DNA from: Fodinibius salinus
Lineage (GTDB): Bacteria; Bacteroidota; Rhodothermia; Balneolales; Balneolaceae
Length of the DNA: 64,000 bases
NCBI RefSeq assembly: GCF_008124865.1
Contig: NZ_VNHY01000004.1
Coordinates: 248,001 to 312,000, forward strand
Direction of reading: 5' to 3'
The translations under genes and the position numbers were made by a program. Below are positions 13,190 through 61,995 of the stretch, one piece after another (the stretch's first letter is position 1; every line of letters starts with the position of its first letter). A model generated the notes under the pieces. That model searched no databases, was not told where the DNA came from, and saw only the letters and a list, made by a program, of their open reading frames with translations.

Positions 13190-13226
13190 CAACAACACCT
13201 TAACTCCCGAAGGCCTCGTTTACTTG

Positions 13227-13412
13227 ATCTAAAGGCAGGTCTCCTGGCTTATCGACCGTTTCTTCTACCCTTCCCGTCTCTTTTGGGGCTGAGACAGTGG
13301 TCAAAACAAAGAAATAAATCGAATTACAGTTGCGGGAACAGCTCCGGATTTCAAATACTTGAAAGCACCGGATTCCCTTTTCACCCCGACGGTTGTCGGG
13401 GCACCTTTAAAT
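13227..13412 (-). promoter_or_regulatory. Cobalamin (AdoCbl-type) riboswitch
   Basis: The minus strand has the B12 box GCCAGGAGACCUGCC at its 3' end (about 13249-13235) and, 5' to it, the conserved GGUGCC...GGGGUGAAAAGGGAAUCCGGUG core (about 13405-13365). P1 is formed by AUUUAAAGG (13412-13404) and CCUUUAGAU (13235-13227). It precedes metE, so B12 is expected to turn off the B12-independent enzyme. Confidence 0.92.
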
Positions 13413-13551
13413 CTATTTTCAATAAAACAGCTACCAATATCATTGTCAACGTATACTTTTCCACAAAAGGACAGGGTTATCAACAATCACTGAACTCTTT
13501 ATAAAATACAGGATACCATCACCACAAAAAATATCAGAGACTCTCCTTGCT

Positions 13552-56490: not shown

Positions 56491-56574
56491 ATACCGGGCA
56501 AAGATGGTTGTAATGAAAATTTGCAAGGTTATGACGAATCGTTTAACTTCCATTTGAATTTAAAACACAAGTCA

Positions 56575-56652
56575 ATGAATCGAATCGCCAAACATATTAT
56601 ATGTCTCTGTTGTATGCATATGGCAATGCCATACTTACAACCGGAGGACTGA
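56575..56652 (+). CDS. Met/Cys-rich leader peptide of metY operon
   Basis: ATG 56575 to TGA 56652 encodes 25 residues (MNRIAKHIICLCCMHMAMPY, then LQPED) with three Cys and four Met codons; the Met codons at 56614, 56620 and 56626 are clustered. No Shine-Dalgarno is seen, as for most genes here. Thirty bases later is a terminator whose left arm can pair with CCGGAGG inside the last codons. It precedes a SAM-I riboswitch and the metY-metX-thrA operon, so a translation-coupled attenuator is inferred. Confidence 0.5.
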   Translation: MNRIAKHIICLCCMHMAMPYLQPED

Positions 56653-56681
56653 TTTGATTCAACTTTTTTGAACAGATTTTC

Positions 56682-56714
56682 AAGCCCTTCGGTCAGATCC
56701 CGAAGGGCTTTTTT
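56682..56714 (+). terminator. Attenuator/terminator of metY leader
   Basis: AAGCCCTTCGG (56682-56692) pairs with CCGAAGGGCTT (56700-56710), loop TCAGATC, then four T residues. CCUUCGG of its left arm is also complementary (one G-U) to CCGGAGG at 56641-56647, forming a mutually exclusive hairpin. Confidence 0.85.
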
Positions 56715-56751
56715 AGTATCTGACTGTTGTTCTTTTCATTTACTGAATACT

Positions 56752-56868
56752 CTTATCGAGAAAGACTGAGGGATCAGGCCCGAAGACGTCTTGGCAACCA
56801 TCCTGCACATAAAATTTGTGTGTAAGAAAGGTGCCACCTCCTGCTCCGGTTTCCGGGGAAAGATGAGA
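56752..56868 (+). promoter_or_regulatory. SAM-I riboswitch (S box)
   Basis: CTTATCGAGA starts the element; GAGGGATCAGGCCCGAAGAC, TTGGCAACCATC, AAAGGTGCCACCTCCTGC and GGAAAGATGAG follow in the S-box order. P1 is CUUAUC (56752-56757) with GAUGAG (56863-56868). It precedes metY by about 135 bp with a terminator between, so SAM should terminate transcription. Confidence 0.95.
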
Positions 56869-56906
56869 AATGAGGTTATTCGTAATAAACTGCGAAAATA
56901 TTTTAC

Positions 56907-58323
<1,417 letters not shown>

Positions 58324-58513: not shown

Positions 58514-59584
58514 ATGATAAAGTCATATATTATGACCAATCAACAATCCATAACTTTTGACGAGCCTTTTGTTACTGAAAAAGGCAAAACCATTCCCCGG
58601 CCTACGGTGGCATACCAAAGCTGGGGAACACTTAACAGCGACCGCACCAACGCAGTGCTTGTGTGCCATGCACTAACGGGCAATACTGCTGCCAATGAGT
58701 GGTTCAGCGGACTCTTTGGTCCCGGCAACCCACTGGATTCCGAGGAGCAGTTTATCATCTGTCCTAATGTGCTGGGGAGCTGCTATGGCACCACCGGCCC
58801 AGCTAGCACCAATCCCAATACCGGAAAACCTTACCGCGCTGACTTTCCTGAGATTACCATTCGAGATATGGTACGCCTGCAACAACGTTTGTTTGATGAG
58901 CTGCAGATCAACAGTATCGAAATGGTGATCGGTGGTTCTATGGGAGGCATGCAGGCACTGGAATGGTGTATCATCGATGAACGTCCGCAATCGGCCGTGC
59001 TTATCGGGATGGGCAAAGTACACCGTCCCTGGGCCATCGGTATAAGCCATACACAGCGGCAGGCTATCTATAACGACCCTCACTGGAACGACGGCTATTA
59101 TTCTAAAGACCAACCGCCCAAAGAGGGGCTGGCACTTGCACGTATGATTGCGATGATCAGCTACCGCAGCGACGCCGACTACCAGCATAAGTTTGGGCGG
59201 ACGTTGCAAGACGACACCAATCATTTTGAGGTAGAATCGTACTTGGGTTATCAGGGACACAAACTGGTAAACCGATTTGATGCCGTCTCTTACGTACGGC
59301 TTACACAGGCAATGGACAGTCACGATGTAGGCTATAACCGCGAATCATATGAAAAAGTATTGGGCGACATTCAAATTCCCGTTATGGTCATTGGTATCGA
59401 CTCCGACAATCTATATCCCGTAGAAGAACAGTACGAACTGGTACGACTTTTGGATAATTCTCGCTATCGCAGGCTCAAATCTCCGCACGGTCATGATGCA
59501 TTTCTGATTGAATTTGAACAGCTCAACAACATTATCAATCCATTTTTAATCGAAACTCCAACCCAAACTGTTAACTACTTATAA
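58514..59584 (+). CDS. metX: Homoserine O-acetyltransferase
   Basis: A 356-residue alpha/beta hydrolase-fold enzyme making O-acetylhomoserine, the substrate of MetY. Motifs: VLVCHALTGNTAANEWF, NVLGSCYGTTGPASTNP, the nucleophile Ser in GGSMGGMQALEW, SYLGYQGHKLVNRFD, GIDSDNLYP and the His in HGHDAFLIE. Start is ATG 58514 or 58532; neither has a ribosome site. The stop overlaps the next start (TAATG). Confidence 0.95.
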   Translation: MIKSYIMTNQQSITFDEPFVTEKGKTIPRPTVAYQSWGTLNSDRTNAVLVCHALTGNTAANEWFSGLFGPGNPLDSEEQFIICPNVLGSCYGTTGPASTNPNTGKPYRADFPEITIRDMVRLQQRLFDELQINSIEMVIGGSMGGMQALEWCIIDERPQSAVLIGMGKVHRPWAIGISHTQRQAIYNDPHWNDGYYSKDQPPKEGLALARMIAMISYRSDADYQHKFGRTLQDDTNHFEVESYLGYQGHKLVNRFDAVSYVRLTQAMDSHDVGYNRESYEKVLGDIQIPVMVIGIDSDNLYPVEEQYELVRLLDNSRYRRLKSPHGHDAFLIEFEQLNNIINPFLIETPTQTVNYL

Positions 59585-61995
59585 TGTCTTCTGATTCTAA
59601 ACATATTCTTAAATTTGGCGGCACATCGCTGCAAGATCAAAAATTTATTAAACAGTCAGCGAAGATTGTCACTGATCGTCTGCAGACTGCTCAACCCTTT
59701 GTAGTAGTTTCAGCTCTTGGCGGTGTAACTGACACACTTATTTCTCTAGCCGACCAAATTGAAACAAATACCGATACTACAGAAAAGAAAATCAATGAAC
59801 TGCGCAAAAAACATCTCGGTATTTTTGACCAGCTTGCAGACAGCGACCACCAAAATCGAGAGAAACTGACTGCTCTCTTCGACGAATTACATGATATTTT
59901 AGACGGCGTGGGCATTCAGTCTGTACCTATGAAGGCCCGAAAAGACCATATTCTTTCCATCGGTGAACGAGCCTCGGCACTTATTTTTGCCTCCGCACTT
60001 TCTCAACAAGGCATATCCGGGCAGGCTTTTGAAGCTCATCAGTTTATTAAGACAGATTCCACATTCGGCGAAGCGAATGTTAAACTGGATGCCTCACGAA
60101 AACTCATCCGTCAGTATCTTCTTCAGCATCCTCAAATTATTCCCGTAATTACCGGTTTCATCGGATCTGATGAACAGCAACGCATCACCACTCTGGGTCG
60201 GTCAGGTTCGGATTATACTGCCGGACTTGTAGCCAACGCTCTCGAAGCCGAGCATCTCGAAATATGGACGGATGTTAACGGTGTACTTTCTGCCGATCCC
60301 AAGTGGGTTCCGACAGCTCAATCAATTGATGAACTCAACTTTGCCGATATTGCCGAACTTTCGGCTCACGGCGCCGAAGTAATTCATCATCAAACTATTC
60401 AGCCTATTCGCCATCAGAATATATCAGTACGGGTGAAGAACAGCTACAATCCAACGCATCCGGGCACTGCTATTACGCCCGATTTTAACTCGAACGGATC
60501 GCTGAAAACCATCACCCTTACCGGTCCTTTTGTACGATTACAAATTGATGAACAACACAGCTTGGACCTACTTTCTAACCTTAAGCAATGGTCAACCGGT
60601 GATTCGTTACCCGCCAGTATACAGCGAACCTCTGAATTTGAACCGGCCCGTTTTCTATTAGAGCAATCATTTTTTGAACGATTCTCTGACAAACTGGCCA
60701 ACTGGGCTTCGGACCGCGGAATTATACTCGATCTGCAATCTGAACTATATGAAGTCAAAAAGTTCAGTAACTATTTTACTGATGATAAATCGCTCACTAA
60801 ACGAATCTGGAACATACTGGATGCAAACAAACTTCAACCTGTCACCAGTTCTCGCAATCGCGATGAACGATTTATTTCGTTTCTCTTTAACAAAGAGGAT
60901 GCCCAACGTGCAGCCCGATTGTTAAATGACTATCTACAAGATGACCAAACCGTCATTGATCTTTTTGTAGCAGGCACCGGGGCTGTGGGACAAACGTTAC
61001 TTAAGCAACTCAAGAATTTAGAACCCGAAGGCATCACCTTTCGGCTACTCGGTACTTGTAACAGTCGCAAAGCACTTTGGGATGATCAGGGTATCGATTT
61101 GGACAAAACTATCAGCTGGTCCCAAGGCCAGCCTACCAACTGGGATCAACTAACCGAAAAACTGACGCAACCCCATTTACATAACGTCATTTTTGTAGAT
61201 GCCACCGGCAGTGAAGAAGTAGCTCGGTTATACCCTCAACTAATGGAAAGCGGTGCCCACATTGTTACCCCCAGTAAGCTTGCTAATACTTTTGAACAAT
61301 CCTTCTTTGATAAACTGCAGTCGCTGACTGAATCGCAGAATACCTCTTTTCGCTATGAGACAACCGTGGGCGCTGGCCTGCCGGTTATTTCTACTGTTAA
61401 AGATTTACAAGCATCCGGCGACACCATTACCGAAATTTCGGGAGTAGTTTCAGGTACCATGACCTACTTGTTCAACCAGCTCGAGCAAGGTGTTCCCTTC
61501 AGTGATGCCGTAGCCGATGCACGTAAAAAGGGCTATGCTGAACCGGATCCCCGTGATGATTTATCGGGCGAAGATGTGGCCCGCAAATTTCTGACGCTGG
61601 CCCGCACGCTGGGATTAAAAATAGATAGAAATCAGCTGACAGTGGAATCACTAATTCCGAACGAACTAACCAATGTTGATAAAAACACCTTTCTAGAAAA
61701 ACTTTCCGACTGTGATGGTGAATGGGAAGAGCGTATCCGCAAAGCTCAAAATAAGAATGAGGTACTCCGTTATACCGGCCGCCTCAAGGATGGGAATATT
61801 AGCATTGGCATCGAATCCGTTTCCCAAAGTTCTCCCATCGGTCAGCTTAATGGTACCAACAACCTAATTCAAATTTTTACCCACCGTTACCATCAAAGCC
61901 CACTGGTAATTCAAGGTCCCGGTGCCGGCAAAGAGGTAACCGCAGCCGGTGTGCTGGCGGACATCCTAAAAACAGCAAAAAAACTTTCGCATTAA
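59584..61995 (+). CDS. thrA: Bifunctional aspartokinase/homoserine dehydrogenase
   Basis: An 803-residue fusion. The N-terminus is an aspartate kinase (ILKFGGTSLQD, SALGGVTDTLISL, TLGRSGSDYTAGLVA, EIWTDVNGVLSADP), residues about 300-450 a divergent ACT-like regulatory linker, and about 455-803 homoserine dehydrogenase (FVAGTGAVGQTLLKQL, NVIFVDATGSEEVA, TVGAGLPVISTVKDL, GVVSGTMTYLFNQL, AEPDPRDDLSGEDVARKFL). It provides homoserine for MetX and threonine. One-base stop/start overlap with metX, so translationally coupled in the SAM-regulated operon. Confidence 0.96.
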   Translation: MSSDSKHILKFGGTSLQDQKFIKQSAKIVTDRLQTAQPFVVVSALGGVTDTLISLADQIETNTDTTEKKINELRKKHLGIFDQLADSDHQNREKLTALFDELHDILDGVGIQSVPMKARKDHILSIGERASALIFASALSQQGISGQAFEAHQFIKTDSTFGEANVKLDASRKLIRQYLLQHPQIIPVITGFIGSDEQQRITTLGRSGSDYTAGLVANALEAEHLEIWTDVNGVLSADPKWVPTAQSIDELNFADIAELSAHGAEVIHHQTIQPIRHQNISVRVKNSYNPTHPGTAITPDFNSNGSLKTITLTGPFVRLQIDEQHSLDLLSNLKQWSTGDSLPASIQRTSEFEPARFLLEQSFFERFSDKLANWASDRGIILDLQSELYEVKKFSNYFTDDKSLTKRIWNILDANKLQPVTSSRNRDERFISFLFNKEDAQRAARLLNDYLQDDQTVIDLFVAGTGAVGQTLLKQLKNLEPEGITFRLLGTCNSRKALWDDQGIDLDKTISWSQGQPTNWDQLTEKLTQPHLHNVIFVDATGSEEVARLYPQLMESGAHIVTPSKLANTFEQSFFDKLQSLTESQNTSFRYETTVGAGLPVISTVKDLQASGDTITEISGVVSGTMTYLFNQLEQGVPFSDAVADARKKGYAEPDPRDDLSGEDVARKFLTLARTLGLKIDRNQLTVESLIPNELTNVDKNTFLEKLSDCDGEWEERIRKAQNKNEVLRYTGRLKDGNISIGIESVSQSSPIGQLNGTNNLIQIFTHRYHQSPLVIQGPGAGKEVTAAGVLADILKTAKKLSH

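Follow-up and report, generated by a model that had tools for sequence, protein, structure and literature searches.

The metY-metX-thrA operon of Fodinibius salinus is very probably preceded by a two-stage leader, in which a ribosome-mediated attenuator with Cys and Met control codons stands in series with a SAM-I riboswitch. This conclusion, which is drawn from sequence comparison, supports the attenuator reading put forward in the initial annotation of this DNA: the short frame is kept in 30 genera, its alternative pairing with the terminator co-varies, and leaders of this kind are also found at other sulfur genes and at trp genes. If the reading is true, the leader would be a natural AND gate, by which a single transcript probes how well translation is supplied with sulfur amino acids, and how much SAM is present, before the methionine branch is turned on. 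The module is kept in about a hundred genomes of the group.

Layout of the metY leader

The leader lies in the window, by which we mean the whole stretch of 64,000 nucleotides that was analysed. The frame with its clustered TGT and ATG codons, the CCGGAGG segment, the Rho-independent terminator starting at 56682 with CCTTCGG in its left arm, and the SAM-I riboswitch with a terminator of its own ahead of the met genes were all found at the positions given in the initial annotation, and family models agreed with the naming of the riboswitch and the genes. The features are as follows.

56521–56549, plus strand: predicted promoter, TTGCAA (56521–56526), 17-nt spacer, TAACTT (56544–56549); a sequence reading, sigma-70-like and weak
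56575–56652, plus strand: leader peptide frame MNRIAKHIICLCCMHMAMPYLQPED, 25 codons, ATG at 56575 and TGA at 56650–56652; from sequence and conservation at metY SAM-I loci
56602–56628, plus strand: putative control region with the Cys and Met codons, C-L-C-C-M-H-M-A-M; composition conserved, order variable across genera
56641–56647, plus strand: candidate antiterminator segment (region 2), CCGGAGG, below a ribosome at the stop codon; from co-varying pairing with the terminator left arm and the stalled-ribosome fold
56682–56715, plus strand: predicted terminator 1 (attenuator), stem 56682–56710, T tract to about 56715; from sequence and fold
56682–56692, plus strand: left arm of terminator 1, AAGCCCTTCGG, including CCTTCGG at 56686–56692; from sequence
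56729–56735, plus strand: boxA-like GTTCTTT, identical to the element of the order's rRNA leaders and spacers; from metY leaders and rRNA loci
56750–56869, plus strand: SAM-I riboswitch aptamer; RF00162, 75.6 bits (cut-off 44.4)
56907–56962, plus strand: predicted terminator 2, SAM-I expression platform, stem about 56907–56958; from sequence and fold
57004–58323, plus strand: metY, O-acetylhomoserine sulfhydrylase family; TIGR01326, 686 bits (cut-off 495)
58514–59584, plus strand: metX, homoserine O-acetyltransferase family; NF001209, 413 bits (cut-off 331)
59584–61995, plus strand: bifunctional aspartokinase/homoserine dehydrogenase (thrA/metL-like); Pfam AA_kinase, NAD_binding_3 and Homoserine_dh

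When the single sequence of the window was folded, a strong terminator formed at 56907–56962 in the SAM-I stage, and an alternative pairing was obtained for a truncated transcript. No T-box match was detected in 56500–57003 at E-values up to 1, and an Rfam search of the leader at a relaxed threshold returned, besides SAM-I, only matches below the cut-off. One SAM-I match was found in the window's own genome, and the nearest relatives of its metY are those of Fodinibius/Aliifodinibius species (Balneolales). The gene upstream of the leader, located on the same strand, encodes an unrelated histidine kinase. Elsewhere in the window, a strong cobalamin riboswitch is located at 13217–13423 on the minus strand (RF00174, 123.4 bits).

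Conservation of the frame and of the alternative pairing

To compare the leader with those of relatives, 129 Balneolales genomes were searched with RF00162; 137 matches from other genomes were taken and oriented, and the set was completed with the window. Sorting of these loci gave 114 before metY, either directly or via a gene for a CoA-binding protein, 23 before other genes (22 of which precede metH) and a single locus ahead of a gene more distantly related to metY. A Cys/Met-rich frame 5' of the aptamer was identified by one scoring rule at 102 of the 114 metY loci (102 genomes, 30 genera) and by the same rule at none of the 23 non-metY SAM-I loci of the order, so that the conserved short frame which the initial annotation had suggested looking for in relatives is indeed widespread. 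The metH genes of these genomes have the SAM-I stage alone, with no leader frame. A strong terminator is present between frame and aptamer at 93 metY loci compared to 1 of the 23 others, and 92 of the 102 leaders combine the frame with a usable terminator.

Cys and Met account for 18.3% and 13.8% of the leader residues, compared to 0.35% and 0.9% in the enzymes of the genes that follow; it should be noted here that the leader starts were picked by their Cys/Met score, which biases this composition upward, and that the control with 0 of 23 loci used the identical rule. The median leader contains 4 Cys codons and 3 non-start Met codons, Cys being at least as frequent as Met. Examples of leader peptides from other loci are MKNSALNTICMIRMMCMCCMTHT, MILIHAYMAMCCMPCFGRSGS, MKLTNQYIAREMMCMCCYMRTLH and MKLTQQNIISSCPMMCCMCMCMTQT. 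The order of the residues differs among genera while the richness in Cys and Met is kept (CLCCMCM, CMMCMCC, YMAMCCMPC, MCMCCYM), which fits the expectation for control codons. Within genera, the pN/pS of the leader is 0.43, as calculated from codons with a single difference, codons with more than one difference being left out.

In 87 of the 102 leaders, compared to about 16 in shuffled sequence, a TTGN-(17–22)-TANNNT-like pattern lies no more than 70 nt ahead of the start codon. These promoter-like patterns 5' of the frame argue against a transcript start downstream of terminator 1, that is, downstream of 56714, which the initial annotation had named as evidence that would speak against its reading. 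In 64 of the 87 leaders with such a pattern, only 4–8 nt separate the end of the −10 box from the start codon, and because it lies so near, leaderless mRNAs may be common among them. In the window, the pattern is weak and was missed by a consensus scan; the start is predicted near 56556, with a predicted 5' UTR of about 20 nt.

The remaining 12 of the 114 metY leaders have no clear frame. In genus g22 of family f2, four leaders (L099, L120, L141 and L159) have Cys/Met codons and no terminator, and together with the frameless leaders they suggest repeated loss or rebuilding of the module. The two ends of the frame are complementary to each other in L120 and L159, immediately before boxA and SAM-I. 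In other families of the class, 40 SAM-I loci, mostly ahead of metY or metX, yielded no convincing leader; 24 of these loci were placed by coordinates since the fixed aptamer pattern did not match. Judging from these sequences, the leader module thus appears to be a Balneolales feature. One of the 40 loci (L220) exceeded the score cut-off and was judged a chance match, being located in G+C-rich DNA at a distance of 169 nt from the aptamer.

The initial annotation had further named co-variation of the CCGGAGG/CCUUCGG pairing in relatives as support, and the pairing does co-vary between genera. In all 92 leaders with frame and terminator, region 2 pairs better with the terminator left arm than does the 49-nt stretch upstream (mean values of −13.7 and −4.4 kcal/mol, respectively). 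Averaged by genus, own-genus pairs reach −14.8 compared to −11.5 (sd 0.42) for permuted pairs, and none of 20,000 permutations was as good. Where Fodinibius pairs CCGGAGG with CCTTCGG, both sides have changed jointly in other genera, giving CAGAGGGT with GCCCTCTG, AAAGGGTC with GGCCCTTT, and GAGAGCCT with AGGCTCTC; in genera g2 and g4 the own pairing is no better than that with the arms of other genera. Region 2 starts between −14 and +4 nt relative to the end of the stop codon in the 92 leaders; upstream of it, the first and the last Cys/Met codon lie at median distances of 32 and 9 nt, respectively. Folding of the window leader gave the terminator when a ribosome mask was placed at the stop codon, the antiterminator when the ribosome was placed at the first Cys codon with the right arm not yet transcribed, and again the terminator when no ribosome was included. 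In these sequences and folds, antiterminator and terminator are predicted to be mutually exclusive, with region 2 covered by a ribosome at the stop codon.

Probable two-stage control and rival explanations

We infer a mechanism in which AND logic combines ribosome stalling, when charged tRNA-Cys or tRNA-Met runs short, with the binding of SAM. In the first stage, a ribosome would translate the short Cys/Met-rich frame. When charged tRNA-Cys or tRNA-Met is scarce, this ribosome would stall in the frame; the exposed CCGGAGG would then pair with the left arm of the first terminator, and transcription would go on. When both tRNAs are well charged, the ribosome would occupy the stop codon and cover CCGGAGG, so that terminator 1 would form, as it would also do if the leader were not translated at all. 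In the second stage, high SAM levels would cause the SAM-I terminator to abort transcription. Since the two terminators are arranged serially, either signal of plenty (charged Cys-/Met-tRNA or SAM) would halt transcription, and the operon would be transcribed only if translation runs short of a sulfur amino acid at a time of low SAM. The control amino acids belong to the controlled pathway (metY-metX-homoserine dehydrogenase, and sulfite reductase), the link of Cys being indirect. Gating by a translation signal would suit metY as the entry step, which commits sulfide and homoserine; metH makes methionine from homocysteine. With this reading, the division of labour between two-stage control of metY and SAM-only control of metH becomes testable.

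Other explanations of the same leader have to be weighed against tRNA charging. The nascent Cys/Met-rich peptide could itself be the sensor, with a ligand (such as a metal) or the redox state arresting the ribosome and the attenuator reading this arrest. Cys-rich peptides are able to bind metals, and the recurrence of CxC and CMCM patterns in the leaders would be in line with such a role. We nevertheless consider it improbable, because Cys and Met differ widely in order and spacing from genus to genus, unlike the fixed residues of arrest peptides, because the targets are all sulfur-assimilation or methionine genes, and because trp leaders of like build occur in the same genomes. Slightly less credit still is due to the idea that the leader senses translation in general, for instance through initiation on leaderless mRNA or a global slow-down, with the Cys and Met codons merely setting the pace. 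The many −10 boxes at 4–8 nt from the start codon and the folding of the terminator without a ribosome speak for it, but it leaves the retention of Cys and Met codons in both metY and sulfite-reductase leaders unexplained.

A simpler view would be that terminator 1 just ends the transcript of the upstream gene, the frame being spurious and SAM-I the sole regulator. The histidine kinase gene does lie upstream on the same strand, but frame, pairing and terminator are kept as a unit in 30 genera, none of the order's 23 other SAM-I loci has this unit, and promoter-like patterns precede the frame. Given the conservation of the whole module, we rejected a role of terminator 1 as the terminator of the upstream gene, and the probability that we assign to this view is very low.

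The proposed Cys/Met attenuator in series with SAM-I is composed of elements that are already known, since leader-peptide attenuation, Cys-codon leaders, SAM-I, tandem riboswitches, tandem leader attenuators and a SAM-I riboswitch that senses uncharged initiator tRNA have all been described. The metY leader shares with the classical attenuators (trp, his, thr, ilv) a frame with control codons, an antiterminator covered by a ribosome at the stop codon, and an intrinsic terminator before biosynthetic genes, but its control codons are of mixed Cys and Met type and a full SAM-I riboswitch with a second terminator follows. Cys codons in a short upstream frame have been proposed to act as a sensor in the polycysteine leaderless ORFs of mycobacteria (Canestrari et al. 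2020, as described in PMC9031893) and in the uORFC-8-2 motif of cysS in Rhodobacterales, which ends in a terminator (PMC8632094); the mycobacterial cys leaders have no conserved terminator hairpin (PMC1262725). The near-leaderless starts predicted for many Balneolales genera would, if borne out, resemble those of the mycobacterial ORFs. In contrast to these Cys-codon leaders, the Balneolales leaders belong to another lineage, use Cys as well as Met, precede met and sulfite-reduction operons and, at metY, are stacked on SAM-I. The Xanthomonas SAM-I riboswitch also senses uncharged initiator tRNA, which it binds directly with a mainly translational effect (PMC7270179). Both met operon leaders would thus join SAM sensing with a signal of Met-tRNA charging, which the metY leader would read by a ribosome on a separate frame and with an effect on transcription. 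As in the tandem attenuators of Salmonella mgtCBR, where two leader ORFs respond additively to ATP and proline with no SAM riboswitch (PMC3641672), one leader would carry two attenuation signals, one of them acting via charging-dependent codons. Like tandem riboswitches (PMC12452182), it has two complete gene-control elements serially in one leader, but one of these is a translated leader, whereas that survey began from Rfam riboswitch aptamer classes. In the literature searched, which covered few subscription papers and leaves priority uncertain, we found no mixed Cys/Met leader in series with SAM-I, no boxA between leader and SAM-I, and no stand-alone Cys/Met leader before sulfite reductase; nor did this literature describe an attenuation system for this bacterial group.

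A boxA-like element and leaders at other genes

In 107 of the 114 metY leaders the aptamer is preceded by the sequence GTTCTTT at up to 60 nt, mostly at a distance of 15–23 nt, compared to 2% in shuffled sequence; none of the 23 other SAM-I leaders of the order has it. Even the metY leaders without a peptide have kept GTTCTTT or GCTCTTT in 11 of 12 cases. Of ten rRNA loci from relatives, nine have GTTCTTT in the 16S leader and nine have it in the 16S-23S spacer, and it is also present in the rRNA spacer of the window's own genome. Several of the peptide-less metY leaders have a small hairpin ahead of boxA and resemble rRNA leaders in this respect. The boxA of Escherichia coli has been reported to block Rho-dependent termination together with NusB/NusE (PMC4807359, PMC5725501). 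By analogy, we infer that boxA in the metY leader may load NusB/S10 onto polymerases that have passed the first stage, and may shield the untranslated riboswitch stretch from Rho once the leader ribosome has stopped. Such protection would mean that a riboswitch leader has recruited an antitermination signal of rRNA operons, and the metY leader would be a case of an rRNA-type boxA inside a riboswitch leader.

A covariance model built from 52 leaders recovered the metY leaders and, at lower scores, two further kinds. A search with the sulfurtransferase protein gave 21 loci (L280–L299 and L301) at which a Cys/Met leader without SAM-I precedes genes for a rhodanese-type sulfurtransferase and an assimilatory sulfite reductase. 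One of these is in the window's own genome (L280, G000:C2, upstream of 533252) and encodes the peptide MNFLNYISNLFANMSMPMCMCCMCCMCTAEGSGCNFPT. Terminator and matching antiterminator are present in 20 of the 21 leaders, for instance GGTAGTGG with CCACTACC and GATAGCGGGTT with AGCCCGCTATC. The nearest model for the rhodanese-type protein is 3-mercaptopyruvate sulfurtransferase, with a score under the cut-off. A cysK-like gene adjoins the sulfite-reductase leader of the own genome on the opposite strand; models for cysE and cysK gave only matches under the cut-off in this genome. A similar Cys/Met-rich leader was found in one case before a gene for dimethylsulfone monooxygenase, sfnG (L266, G124:C179).

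In the own genome, trpE is also preceded by a trp leader that carries WWW and a terminator (L312, G000:C1:448906), and further Balneolales leaders have runs of Trp codons and terminators before trpE (L267, L269, L271, L273–L275, L277 and L278), this anthranilate-synthase-like gene being named from the start of its protein and not by a family search. Weak matches to the leader model in the own genome (L310 and L313–L315) had no cluster of Cys/Met or other control codons. The stand-alone Cys/Met leaders and the trp leaders provide independent support for the role of the control codons and for this type of attenuator in the lineage, and the loci at metY, sulfite reductase and sfnG suggest a sulfur regulon built from leader peptides. 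We tentatively extend this to a model, to which we give somewhat less than an even chance, in which the metY leader is a three-part gate composed of a Cys/Met-tRNA attenuator, an rRNA-type boxA loading NusB/S10, and SAM-I, while the stand-alone Cys/Met attenuator governs sulfite reduction. At L280–L299 a short hairpin followed by GGGCTTTGTGA recurs after the terminator, and this sequence is perhaps a divergent boxA.
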